Source of the DNA: Gracilibacillus lacisalsi DSM 19029
GTDB taxonomy: Bacteria > Bacillota > Bacilli > Bacillales > Amphibacillaceae
Reading direction: 5' to 3'
Assembly (NCBI RefSeq): GCF_000377765.1
Contig: NZ_KB898663.1
Span: forward strand, 124,001 to 188,000
DNA length: 64,000 nt
Positions 11,898 to 19,674 of this stretch are shown here, in pieces. A program made the translations under genes and the position numbers. The notes under the pieces are model-generated. The model had not been told where the DNA came from. It saw only the letters and a list, made by a program, of their open reading frames with translations, and ran no database searches. Numbering within the stretch: position 1 is the stretch's first letter; every line of letters begins with the position of its first letter.

Positions 11898-12815
11898 TTA
11901 TGTGAATAGTTGAGCAATAACTTCTTCTGCACCCAAAACCCCTGATGTCGATAATCCATAAATATAACTCTTTCGGATCGAAATAGCATCAGCACCTTGT
12001 TGTAAGTAGCGGTTTAATTCATCTTTCGACTTCACTTCTACTTCAACAACAACGGTTAATTTTTCACTTGCGATAATATTAATCTGTTCTAGTAATTCCA
12101 GATTAGATGCATTAATATTGGACAAGATAATCCCATCAACTTGCTGTTCCAGACTTGAACGAACATCATCTAATGATAAGTCTCCATAAACAAAGATCGG
12201 TAATGTTGTAAATTGCTTTATATATTGAATCTCTTCCCAATTAATAGAGCGTTTTTGATATTCTTGTGCCACTTGTTCTGCCAGTGGGCTTTTATTTGCA
12301 TAATTTTTCTTAGCAAAAATTGGATCAACAACAAAGTTGGTAGTTCCTTTCACTAGTTGATCTGCTTTTAAATGAATTTCATCTTTAGATATTGACAAAA
12401 TTATTGCCTGATAACCGGCTAGTTCAGCACGCTGGATAAAATGTTTGGTAAGTTCTAAATCTTGAAAAATATGAGCTTGGAACCATAGCTCACTACCTGG
12501 AACAGCATCACTAATTTCTTCAATGCTATAGGATGAATGACTGCTAACAATAAAAGGTACACCTTGCTTACTGGCAGCTTTTGCAGTTGCTAATTCTCCA
12601 TCTTCGTGAAAATAAGTCTGCGCACCAACTGCACCTAATAATAATGGAGAAATTTTTAATTTAGACGGTGAATTGCTATCAAGTATAAATGATGTAGCAT
12701 TTGCTTTCTTGGATGTTATTTGATCTAAATATAATTTAGCTGCTTTGGATAATTGCTTTTCAGCTACTTCCTCTAGACTATCTACAAAATTTCCCTTTAC
12801 ATTTGTTTTTACCAT
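11898..12815 (-). CDS. Degenerate FMN-dependent alpha-hydroxy-acid dehydrogenase homologue
   Basis: 305 residues against about 380 for the family. The N-terminal half resembles lactate monooxygenase/FMN_dh proteins: SPLLLGAVGAQ at 56-66, GELATAKAASKQGVPFIVSS at 73-92, then SIEEI and WFQAH at 111-115. The active-site signature expected as SNHGGRQ reads SNINASN (232-238), so the catalytic His and Arg are gone. The flavin-contacting Lys of LKG is replaced in FVYGD (208-212), the substrate Tyr after WFQ is absent, and the FMN-phosphate motif DGGxRxG reads EVEVKSK. It is probably a catalytically dead or repurposed TIM barrel. The frame is intact and the ribosome-binding site is good (AGGAGG). Its own S-box riboswitch lies upstream. 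Confidence 0.72.
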   Translation of the reverse strand: MVKTNVKGNFVDSLEEVAEKQLSKAAKLYLDQITSKKANATSFILDSNSPSKLKISPLLLGAVGAQTYFHEDGELATAKAASKQGVPFIVSSHSSYSIEEISDAVPGSELWFQAHIFQDLELTKHFIQRAELAGYQAIILSISKDEIHLKADQLVKGTTNFVVDPIFAKKNYANKSPLAEQVAQEYQKRSINWEEIQYIKQFTTLPIFVYGDLSLDDVRSSLEQQVDGIILSNINASNLELLEQINIIASEKLTVVVEVEVKSKDELNRYLQQGADAISIRKSYIYGLSTSGVLGAEEVIAQLFT

Positions 12816-12845
12816 TATATATGCCTCCTAATAATTTAGGGAAAC

Positions 12846-13001
12846 AAAAAAAGCCCCTCTTGATAAACAAGAGAGACTAAAGCTATTATCTCCCTCTTAT
12901 TTGCCAAACTAAAGTTTGCAGGATTTAGCACCTTTTAAGCATCGATAGCTTAAGGTTGCCGGGTTTCATCGGGCCAGTCCCTCCACCTCTCTTCATAAGA
13001 G
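12846..13001 (-). ncRNA. S-box (SAM-I) riboswitch with terminator, inside the sulfur module
   Basis: On the minus strand the aptamer runs from CTCTTATGAAGAGAGG (13001) through the conserved GAGGGACTGGCCCGATGA, ACCCGGCAACC and AAGGTGCTAAATCC to the closing strand AATAAGAGGG (about 12893). A terminator follows: CTCTCTTG/CAAGAGGG stem and T7 at 12846-12880. It starts 12 nt after the stop of the acyl-CoA synthetase gene, so it acts as an internal valve of the operon ahead of the FMN_dh-like gene. High SAM should stop transcription. Confidence 0.95.
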
Positions 13002-13013
13002 TATCTATATGTT

Positions 13014-14699
13014 TTAGTTTTTCATTTTATTAGCTCTTTCGATTTCTAATGCTTTTAATTGCCTTCTTAAAATCTTTCCACTGATTTTGGTTTTTGGTAA
13101 TTCTTCCATTACTTCTATTTCTCTAGGTGCAGCATGTGCTGAAAGATTCTTTCTCACATATAATCGAATCTCTTCCAATAGTTCTTCTGACTGCTTATAA
13201 CCAGATCTTAATGTAATAAACGCTTTAACCAATTCTCCACGCAATTCATCTGGTTTACCTATTACACCAGCTTCTTCTACTGCAGGATGTTCAATTAATT
13301 TGCTTTCCACTTCAAACGGACCGATGCGCTCACCAGCAGAGTTGATCATGTCATCGTTACGACCTTGGAAGAAGACATATCCTTCTTCATCCTGTAAAGC
13401 GAGGTCTCCAGAGATATACCAGCCCTCATATTGAAAATAAGGTTTAAACTTGTCTTTGTTTCCCCAAATCTCTTTCATCAGTCCTGGCCAAGGGGTACGA
13501 ACTGCTAGTTGACCAACTTCACCTCGTGGCAACTCATTACCTTCTTCATCTAAAATACCTACCTGCACGCCAGGAAAAGGTCTTCCCATTGAACCTGGTT
13601 TGATTTTTTCAGCTGGAAGGTTGACAATTAAATGTCCACCAGTCTCTGTCATCCACCAAGTATCGTGAATGCGGACATTTAAGCTCTTCCATGCCCATTG
13701 GATTACTTCAGGGTTTAGAGGTTCACCAACACTTAATACATGTCGTACAGAAGATAAATCAAACTGTTTATAGAGGTCCCCTTTCGACAGAAGCATACGG
13801 AAAGCTGTCGGTGCACTATACCAAATCGTTACTCCTAACTCTTCAATTAAAGAATACCAATTCTCAGCACTGAAGCGTCCACCTTGGATCACAACGGTTG
13901 CTCTATTCAATAGTGGAGCAAACAAGCCGTATACACTGCCTGTTACCCAGCCCGGGTGTGACGTACACCAATAAACATCATCATCTTTAATATCTAGCAC
14001 CCATTTTCCTGTCACGATATGATGTTGTGCTGCACGATGGGCATGTAAGACGCCTTTTGGTTTACCAGTAGAACCACTCGTATAATGAATGATTAAACCA
14101 TCCTCCCAGTCAACCCATTCCACATATTCGTCACCTTCCACCGGTTGTATGGTTTCTTTCTCAATATCCTCTACAAAAAGAATCGTCTCTAGTGAAGGAA
14201 TATCGTCTTTCGGTACACGTTTAACTAACTCCTGATCAGTAATTAGTAAAGTACCAGCACAATCATTGATACGGTCTCTAACCGCTTCTTCCATAAATGC
14301 TTCAAACAAAGGACCAGCGATAGCCCCTACTTTAATAGCTGCTAAGATCGCGATATAGCATTCAGGTGTTTTAGGGAGAAATACGAAAACACGATCCCCT
14401 TTCGTCACCCCGTGTTCTTTTAAAATCCGAGCATAATGGTCAGTTTGATCCTTCACCTCTTTAAACGTATACGAGCACTTTTCGTCTTCATTCATATAAT
14501 GGAGAGCAATTTTATCACCATACCCCTCCGCTACATGACGATCAATTGTTTCATATGCTGCATTAATTTTTCCTGTCTTCGCAGCAGATAATAGTTCCTT
14601 TGCATCTGACCAATCAAAATTTTCTCTTATTTCATCATAGTTGCTTAGGTTATATTCACCTTTAATAGTTGCAATATGTGTTGTTGCCTGCTGTGTCAT
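13014..14699 (-). CDS. AMP-forming acyl-CoA synthetase, AcsA-like
   Basis: 561 residues of the ANL superfamily, clearly related to Bacillus AcsA (acetyl-CoA synthetase). Adenylation motifs are visible: HYTSGSTGKPKGV (P-loop), DTWWMTETGG, YISGDLA and the hinge region GRNDDMINSAGERIGPFEVES. The C-terminal catalytic-lysine motif PKTKISGKILRR carries one extra residue compared with the usual PKTRSGK. It should activate a carboxylic acid with ATP and CoA. Its position in an S-box-controlled operon with a sulfonate-type importer suggests a sulfur-containing acid rather than acetate as substrate; that is inference. It ends 12 nt before an internal riboswitch. Confidence 0.85.
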   Translation of the reverse strand: MTQQATTHIATIKGEYNLSNYDEIRENFDWSDAKELLSAAKTGKINAAYETIDRHVAEGYGDKIALHYMNEDEKCSYTFKEVKDQTDHYARILKEHGVTKGDRVFVFLPKTPECYIAILAAIKVGAIAGPLFEAFMEEAVRDRINDCAGTLLITDQELVKRVPKDDIPSLETILFVEDIEKETIQPVEGDEYVEWVDWEDGLIIHYTSGSTGKPKGVLHAHRAAQHHIVTGKWVLDIKDDDVYWCTSHPGWVTGSVYGLFAPLLNRATVVIQGGRFSAENWYSLIEELGVTIWYSAPTAFRMLLSKGDLYKQFDLSSVRHVLSVGEPLNPEVIQWAWKSLNVRIHDTWWMTETGGHLIVNLPAEKIKPGSMGRPFPGVQVGILDEEGNELPRGEVGQLAVRTPWPGLMKEIWGNKDKFKPYFQYEGWYISGDLALQDEEGYVFFQGRNDDMINSAGERIGPFEVESKLIEHPAVEEAGVIGKPDELRGELVKAFITLRSGYKQSEELLEEIRLYVRKNLSAHAAPREIEVMEELPKTKISGKILRRQLKALEIERANKMKN

Positions 14700-14723
14700 T
14701 TGATGTTCCCCCTTGAAGACCGG

Positions 14724-19211: not shown

Positions 19212-19247
19212 TATTTATTTCCTCCCCAAGTTAAAATTCAGAAAATT

Positions 19248-19409
19248 AAAAAATCCTTCTTCGATAAGAAGAAGGCTTTAACTGACAGAACAGTAGTCTT
19301 CCTCTTATCTTTCAGGATAAATATCCTGCAGGAATTAGCACCTTTTAAGCCGTTGCTTAATGGTTGCTGGGCGTCATCGGGCCAGTCCCTCCGCCTCTCT
19401 GGATAAGAG
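19248..19409 (-). ncRNA. S-box (SAM-I) riboswitch, gene-proximal of a tandem pair
   Basis: Minus-strand aptamer from CTCTTATCCAGAGAGG (19409) with GAGGGACTGGCCCGATGA, CCAGCAACC, AAAGGTGCTAATTCC and closing GATAAGAG (19302-19309). The terminator stem CCTTCTTC/GAAGAAGG followed by T6 is at 19248-19276. It leads directly into the metY fusion gene. Confidence 0.96.
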
Positions 19410-19430
19410 TGATGCTATTTAGTTGATGAT

Positions 19431-19598
19431 AAAAAAGTCTCCCTATACTAAAGATAGAGAGACTTGAATAAATATATTCGCTCTCTTATCTCTCTAAGCA
19501 TATACGCTTAGTGGAATTGGCACCTGTATTAAGGACGATTTACTTAATGGTTGCCGAGGCTTCACAGGGCCAATCCCTCCACCTCTCTCGATAAGAAG
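19431..19598 (-). ncRNA. S-box (SAM-I) riboswitch, promoter-proximal of a tandem pair
   Basis: Minus-strand aptamer beginning CTTCTTATCGAGAGAGG (19598) with GAGGGATTGGCCCTGTGA, GCCTCGGCAACC and CAGGTGCCAATTCC, closed by GATAAGAGAG (19481-19490). Its own terminator (AGTCTC/GAGACT plus ATAG pairing, T6) lies at 19431-19466. It is complete and independent of the second riboswitch downstream. Confidence 0.95.
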
Positions 19599-19645
19599 TA
19601 TAGAATTCCGAGTTGTTTACTTGCTTTTAACTTTCGTTATTTAAT

Positions 19646-19674
19646 ACTTTAGCATGGCGTCAAAATGATGTCAA
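19646..19674 (-). promoter_or_regulatory. Sigma-A promoter of the S-box sulfur module
   Basis: TTGACA (19669-19674) and TAAAGT (19646-19651) are 17 bp apart, with an extended -10 TG. Transcription would begin about 40 nt before the first riboswitch. Confidence 0.75.

Follow-up and report, generated by a model that had tools for sequence, protein, structure and literature searches.

An S-adenosylmethionine-controlled gene block of Gracilibacillus lacisalsi: probable homocysteine synthesis by a MetY-CoA fusion with acetate recycling

A cluster of six genes was analysed in a 64,000-nucleotide stretch of the Gracilibacillus lacisalsi DSM 19029 genome (contig NZ_KB898663.1, positions 124,001 to 188,000; hereafter the window). 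It encodes an O-acetylhomoserine sulfhydrylase (MetY) fused to a coenzyme A (CoA)-binding domain, here called MetY-CoA, an ATP-binding cassette (ABC) importer, an acetate--CoA ligase paralogue, here called AcsL, and a relative of flavin mononucleotide (FMN)-dependent hydroxy-acid oxidases, here called the FMN_dh-like protein. Judging from gene content and residue conservation, the block probably serves homocysteine synthesis by direct sulfhydrylation with acetate recycling, under control of S-adenosylmethionine (SAM), a reading that we hold with moderate confidence. MetY acting on O-acetylhomoserine releases acetate, one per homocysteine. In the proposed scheme homoserine would be acetylated with acetyl-CoA by MetA here, and by MetX in many relatives; MetY-CoA would put sulfide (or a thiol) in place of the acetyl group, releasing acetate, and AcsL would turn the released acetate back into acetyl-CoA. 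With plentiful SAM, tandem SAM-I riboswitches (S-boxes) would stop transcription of the whole set, and the FMN_dh-like protein would be a non-catalytic lineage add-on, descended from an FMN hydroxy-acid oxidase and placed behind its own S-box. The recycling reading was preferred because metX or hom lie nearby, MetA is of the acetyl type, the acetate pocket of AcsL is kept and AcsL outlasts the importer.

Five genes run in one direction, and the sixth, for the FMN_dh-like protein, follows behind its own S-box. In transcriptional order the minus strand carries the promoter, S-box 1 and S-box 2 each with a terminator, the genes for MetY-CoA, binding protein, permease, ATPase and AcsL, then S-box 3 with its terminator and the FMN_dh-like gene. 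The promoter, the three S-boxes, the five same-strand genes and the FMN_dh-like gene had been described in an earlier note on this DNA, and all were recovered in place:

19646..19674, minus strand: promoter TTGACA-17-TAAAGT with TG before the -10 (consensus match and leader conservation)
19604..19622, minus strand: leader element AAGTAAACAACTCGGAATT, between promoter and S-box 1 (conserved in aligned leaders)
19483..19597, minus strand: S-box 1, SAM-I riboswitch aptamer (RF00162, 88.5 bits)
19435..19465, minus strand: terminator-like hairpin of S-box 1
19302..19409, minus strand: S-box 2, SAM-I riboswitch aptamer (RF00162, 96.9 bits)
19255..19275, minus strand: terminator-like hairpin of S-box 2
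17415..19211, minus strand: MetY-CoA, 598 amino acids, O-acetylhomoserine sulfhydrylase (residues 12-426) and CoA_binding_2 (470-583) (profile models)
16381..17388, minus strand: substrate-binding protein, SsuA family (TIGR01728, 229 bits; AlphaFold model)
15468..16322, minus strand: ABC permease, SsuC-like (profile models)
14724..15452, minus strand: ABC ATPase, SsuB-like (profile models)
13014..14699, minus strand: AcsL, acetate--CoA ligase paralogue with PX5GK motif, 561 amino acids (PRK04319, 794 bits)
12894..13001, minus strand: S-box 3, SAM-I riboswitch aptamer within the gene cluster (RF00162, 89.4 bits)
12852..12878, minus strand: terminator-like hairpin of S-box 3
11898..12815, minus strand: FMN_dh-like protein, read as a pseudoenzyme, 305 amino acids (PF01070, 130 bits)

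Loci for comparison were found by a scan with the linker and CoA domain of the fusion, and gene presence was scored by chosen bit-score thresholds. The best 80 of 136 confirmed loci were used; because of this choice close relatives are over-represented, and locus counts do not stand for independent events. The five-gene block was complete and on one strand in 61 of the 80 loci, and many families of the order share this architecture. AcsL was found in 71 loci (the copy at L143 being truncated) and the importer in 61. Ten loci kept AcsL without a complete importer, while none of the 61 importers stood without AcsL, as one would expect of a ligase working for MetY and not for the importer. At L185, one of the ten, remnants of the binding protein and ATPase lie beside a full-length AcsL, and MetY is in two pieces below the scoring threshold. 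Among 35 neighbourhoods of the fusion from further genomes of the order (L067-L094, L096-L102), the binding protein was present in 30 and AcsL in 30; L087 has the importer alone and L094 AcsL alone, the two sets being otherwise the same. The co-occurrence suggested by the earlier note therefore held for the five genes but did not extend to the FMN_dh-like gene, which was present at 8 of the 80 loci only and for this reason was placed outside the conserved set.

The surroundings of the block point to O-acetylhomoserine. Either metX or hom was found within 10 kb in 41/80 loci (36 with MetX, 39 with Hom); for each of the two a single copy was scored, Hom lying above its subfamily cut-off (362 against 205) and MetX above that of PRK00175 (405 against 331). 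The MetA of G. lacisalsi is of the acetyl type, scoring 489 with NF047918 (cut-off 460.5) and staying below the cut-off of the succinyl model (457 against 495), and an S-box lies some 1.1 kb upstream of its gene, a 201-amino-acid open reading frame (ORF) separating the two. This gene content suggests that O-acetylhomoserine is made in the same cell as MetY-CoA. The genome also has cysH (model-confirmed) with cysJ, cysI and sat (named by eye) behind an S-box, so that sulfide could be supplied without the importer.

AcsL scores above the cut-off of the acetate--CoA ligase equivalog PRK04319 (794 against 729 bits) and below that of TIGR02188 (485.5 against 725), a comparison in which the canonical AcsA of the same genome was not scored alongside. 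V310, T311, V386 and W414 (Salmonella Acs numbering, mapped by alignment), which we take to be the acetate-pocket residues, are identical in 42/42 AcsL and 13/13 canonical AcsA sequences. All three pocket motifs occur together in 69 of the 71 AcsL copies at the loci, the exceptions being the truncated L143 copy and that of L174, which is without GWVTG. A role as ligase for larger acids was rejected, since the pocket tryptophan and valines are kept. The acetate used by AcsL would come from MetY. AcsL and canonical AcsA formed separate clades with support 100/100 in a tree of 22 and 13 sequences, respectively; within G. lacisalsi the two are 58% identical. Both were present in 13 of the 15 genomes searched, with AcsL only in G026 and neither in G172. 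The two proteins also differ by a one-residue insertion in the loop that precedes the catalytic lysine, which reads PKTxISGK in AcsL and PKTR-SGK in AcsA. The resulting PX5GK was seen in 42/42 aligned AcsL, with PX4GK in 13/13 AcsA, and in 70 of the 71 AcsL copies at the loci, the L143 copy being truncated before the motif. In the portion of PMC11619455 available to us, PX4GK is given as the acetylation motif of the acetyl-CoA-synthetase-type family, recognition by Bacillus subtilis AcuA is shown to be influenced by the six residues that precede the lysine, and a single proline change was by itself insufficient in Escherichia coli MenE. The insertion may thus free AcsL from AcuA-type acetylation.

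A second tandem S-box pair was observed elsewhere in the G. lacisalsi genome (L107, C6:156500-162500), at C6:157044-157158 and 157240-157345. It precedes genes for a thiolase, an acetoacetate--CoA ligase (TIGR01217, 711 bits against a cut-off of 521), a thiolase-like protein and a small unassigned ORF, and is possibly another acetyl-CoA-yielding set under SAM control.

The catalytic domain of MetY-CoA scored 657 bits with TIGR01326 (cut-off 495), the protein falling below the cut-off of the equivalog PRK08248 (690.8 against 726). As the earlier note had claimed, this MetY carries a CoA-binding domain: the match spans positions 1-114 of the 116 of CoA_binding_2, a domain that is presumably YccU/YneT-like. 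The tail of MetY-CoA is 100% identical to the Gracilibacillus suaedae copy. Pairwise ratios of nonsynonymous to synonymous substitution rates (dN/dS) were 0.01-0.05 for MetY-CoA; these and the values below are six simple pairwise estimates per gene, some with saturated dS. The domain would sense or dock CoA or acetyl-CoA. A literature search returned no paper pairing 'O-acetylhomoserine sulfhydrylase' with 'CoA-binding domain'. A second MetY-CoA fusion is encoded in the G. lacisalsi genome (L064:6840-8468, contig C12) behind one S-box, with no other genes of the module nearby; its CoA domain is shortened and diverged (41% identical, several deletions).

A more specific version of the recycling reading, which we put forward as a tentative possibility, would make MetY-CoA and AcsL a self-recharging homocysteine synthase, in which the CoA domain docks CoA or acetyl-CoA, the dedicated synthetase re-activates the acetate, the insertion evades acetylation and SAM is left as the sole control. 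We know of no acetyl-CoA synthetase acting as a by-product recycler in amino-acid biosynthesis, and none assigned to such a role was found in a literature search.

Control by S-boxes, also claimed earlier, was supported by three matches to RF00162 of 88.5-96.9 bits, about twice the gathering score of 44.4, and by a terminator-like hairpin after each aptamer (19465-19435, 19275-19255 and 12878-12852). The riboswitches are expected to switch transcription as their family does. An S-box core lies no more than 620 bp upstream of MetY in 76/80 loci, and a count over 1.6 Mb gave 116 cores in the coding orientation against 0 in the opposite one. Three of the four loci lacking a core (L119, L162, L168) have a covariance-model match within 620 bp; at the fourth, L185, the nearest such match ends about 865 bp upstream of MetY. 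S-box 3 was likewise present in 12/12 loci of relatives with the short FMN_dh-like gene (L052-L063). In Gracilibacillus orientalis, G030 (L115, L054), a single S-box was found before MetY-CoA, directly behind the leader element, in contrast to the tandem pair of close relatives.

The promoter matches the consensus at 10 of 12 positions. On consensus alone it was rejected, as the scan gave fewer such sites (18) than expected (27.9). The call was nevertheless retained because TTGACA and TGCTAAA, separated by a variable spacer, are invariant in 9/9 aligned leaders (eight from Gracilibacillus, the window among them, and that of G119). The leader element has the form AGT-n-ACTCGGAATT, with ACTCGGAATT invariant in all nine leaders. 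CTCGGAAT precedes 7 of the 124 S-box cores examined, all seven belonging to this operon in Gracilibacillus, and a comparison of the element with Rfam gave, besides the S-box, a chance-level match only.

Several observations weigh against acetate recycling. The acetyl route needs no importer, yet 61/80 loci carry one. MetY-CoA occurs without an importer or an AcsL above threshold in 9/80 loci; among these, L172 is cut short and L180 has a weaker ligase match. Genome G172 (locus L087) has the importer, metX and hom but no AcsL, and no AcsL or AcsA match was obtained in it at E <= 1e-120. The scored MetX lies below the cut-off of the acetyl equivalog TIGR01392 (381 against 500). Canonical AcsA is present in the same genome as AcsL, and the changes D248H and W443F in AcsL could shift its substrate.

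The importer probably brings in a small anionic sulfur compound. Its assignment to the sulfonate class by the earlier note was upheld, as the binding protein scores above the cut-off of the SsuA subfamily TIGR01728 (229 against 163.5 bits), and its AlphaFold model (predicted local distance difference test score, 87) has E. coli SsuA as closest solved fold (template modelling score, 0.76), with entries carrying bound 2-(N-morpholino)ethanesulfonate (MES) and 3-(N-morpholino)propanesulfonate (MOPS) among the matches. A cysteine after the signal helix makes it a probable lipoprotein. Sulfonate scavenging, in which SsuABC-like import feeds a desulfonating enzyme elsewhere to give sulfite and then sulfide for MetY, with AcsL incidental or a supplier of acetyl-CoA, would account for this subfamily score and for the fold with its MES- and MOPS-bound relatives, and it is close to the label 'Sulfonate uptake' printed in the accessible part of PMC4342826. 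However, the importer proteins score below cut-off with the SsuB, SsuC and TauA/B/C equivalogs, and GTDP is invariant where SsuA has its KGSS loop (40/40 family members, being the window copy and 39 of 62 matches, aligned with two SsuA proteins). Searches of the G. lacisalsi genome gave nothing for SsuD at E <= 0.001 or for TauD at E <= 1e-20, in agreement with the earlier note, which had seen neither enzyme in the cluster. SsuD scored over its cut-off in 1/41 importer genomes, a further one (G385) having a match below it, and in 1/39 controls, which were hand-picked fusion-less genomes of related families, not checked for the importer; TauD was found in 1/20 importer genomes, a count without a control group, and the search for desulfonating enzymes covered these two. 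A route via SsuD or TauD was therefore rejected, SsuD not being enriched over controls and TauD being found in one genome of 20. The importer is also absent from 10 loci in which AcsL is retained. We consider sulfonate scavenging unlikely as the function of the block.

The pathway proposed in the earlier note was of another kind: an imported organosulfur acid (sulfoacetate, 3-sulfopropionate, methylthio- or mercaptopropionate) would be made a CoA thioester by AcsL, and its sulfur or thiol passed to MetY via the CoA domain. The joint presence of importer, ligase and MetY-CoA in 61/80 loci, the SsuA-class fold of the binding protein, the failure to find SsuD in the genome and the differences of AcsL from AcsA (D248H, W443F and the A10 insertion) all suit it. 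What tells against it is the ligase, whose acetate pocket is complete in 42/42 AcsL, whose score exceeds the PRK04319 cut-off (794 against 729) and which is kept in the 10 loci where the importer is lost; in addition, metX and hom are neighbours, and no sulfur-carbon-cleaving enzyme was recognised among the recurrent neighbour clusters, which were inspected by eye with most single ORFs unannotated. Activation of an imported organosulfur acid by this ligase was thus not supported, and we regard the pathway as quite improbable.

The FMN_dh-like protein belongs by descent to the FMN hydroxy-acid oxidase family (PF01070, 130 bits against 24.9), and its model matches the fold of HAO1, with the barrel kept, at a modest confidence of 73.6. 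The active-site Lys, His, Arg and second Tyr and the FMN-phosphate motif, positions whose catalytic and flavin-phosphate roles we assume to be those of the family, are replaced in 11/11 Gracilibacillus copies aligned; in the N-terminal Tyr column, Tyr persists in most copies, that of the window included, and three have Phe. In the Aquibacillus koreensis copy the Lys is kept, and the His, Arg, second Tyr and phosphate motif are lost. The C-terminus is shorter than in FMN-dependent oxidases. The description of this homologue as dead in the earlier note therefore proved sound, and an active oxidase was rejected because of the lost catalytic residues. The gene was found in 11/17 genomes of the genus, in G119 and, in a 314-amino-acid form, in A. 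koreensis, and it stands behind its own S-box in 12/12 loci examined. It is read as a lineage-specific pseudoenzyme under purifying selection, with a putative regulatory or binding role. That it is instead an active flavoenzyme, or a functionless gene in decay, appears very improbable to us. The N-terminal Tyr kept in most copies, a dN above that of its neighbours and its lack in 6/17 same-genus genomes would fit one or other of these. But the other Tyr, the Lys, His, Arg and phosphate-binding motif are gone in all 11 Gracilibacillus copies, and decay is at odds with a dN/dS of 0.09-0.18 (against 0.01-0.11 for MetY, the binding protein, AcsL and the lactate dehydrogenase), with the lack of internal stops in the 8 copies tested and with the S-box in front of the gene in all 12 loci, even in G025, an 83% complete genome in which a MetY-CoA orthologue and AcsL were not found. 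Next to the FMN_dh-like gene, the draft genome of G025 (L059:7334-8337) has a lactate dehydrogenase gene broken into two reading frames. Aquibacillus halophilus (G009, L068:8691-12710) carries an intact FMN hydroxy-acid oxidase; an S-box precedes the cluster in which it lies, which by eye resembles metQ-metN-metI. A tree with the window copy and this oxidase showed long branches that meet, with no clear link of descent. The A. halophilus enzyme could oxidise a methionine hydroxy-analogue; a literature search for an oxidase of that compound returned no paper.

Upstream of the promoter, at 19840-20260 of the window, lies a palindromic repeat of about 420 bp with 83-nucleotide inverted arms, which looks like a miniature inverted-repeat transposable element. 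Its family has 97 matches in the genome, partial or full and with both strands counted (40 of 184 candidates were scored).

The cluster is real and conserved, and it is probably misnamed in annotation. The fate of the acetate from O-acetylhomoserine sulfhydrylase is rarely considered, and a conserved operon pairing the sulfhydrylase with its own acetyl-CoA synthetase makes it testable in many Bacillales. Acetate recycling would also offer a function for the MetY-CoA fusion. Annotations such as 'sulfonate uptake' and 'acetate--CoA ligase' may hide parts of methionine synthesis, and the cargo of the importer becomes a testable question of sulfur nutrition. A literature search, with most subscription journals outside its scope, found no functional study of the operon. 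The statement in the earlier note that no pathway with this set had been described consequently stands for the function in the literature searched; the operon itself has been tabulated, since an RNA sequencing study of Bacillus methanolicus lists '(SAM)-(PyrR)-BMMGA3_03030-ssuA1-ssuC1-ssuB1-acsA1-thrA' as 'Sulfonate uptake' in the part of PMC4342826 accessible to us.

Compared with known systems, MetY-CoA shares its catalytic domain with MetY (TIGR01326) and differs by the C-terminal CoA_binding_2 fusion. AcsL resembles Bacillaceae AcsA in fold family, acetate pocket and a score above the equivalog cut-off, and is set apart by its separate clade, the PX5GK insertion, D248H, W443F and S-box control. 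The importer is like SsuABC in the SsuA subfamily model and fold, whereas its loop motif is changed, it scores below the SsuB and SsuC equivalog cut-offs and its genome is without an SsuD match. With glycolate and lactate oxidases (FMN-dependent 2-hydroxy-acid oxidases) the FMN_dh-like protein has PF01070 and the barrel fold in common, but it is without the catalytic Lys, His and Arg and the FMN-phosphate motif, and its C-terminus is shortened. The nearest counterpart of the whole block is the B. methanolicus operon as given in the available part of PMC4342826, in which BMMGA3_03030 would be the MetY gene and thrA would be hom. There, too, a SAM riboswitch stands in front and the order runs from importer to ligase, then to thrA; the window differs in lacking hom, in the additional S-box at the front and in having S-box 3 and the FMN_dh-like gene.

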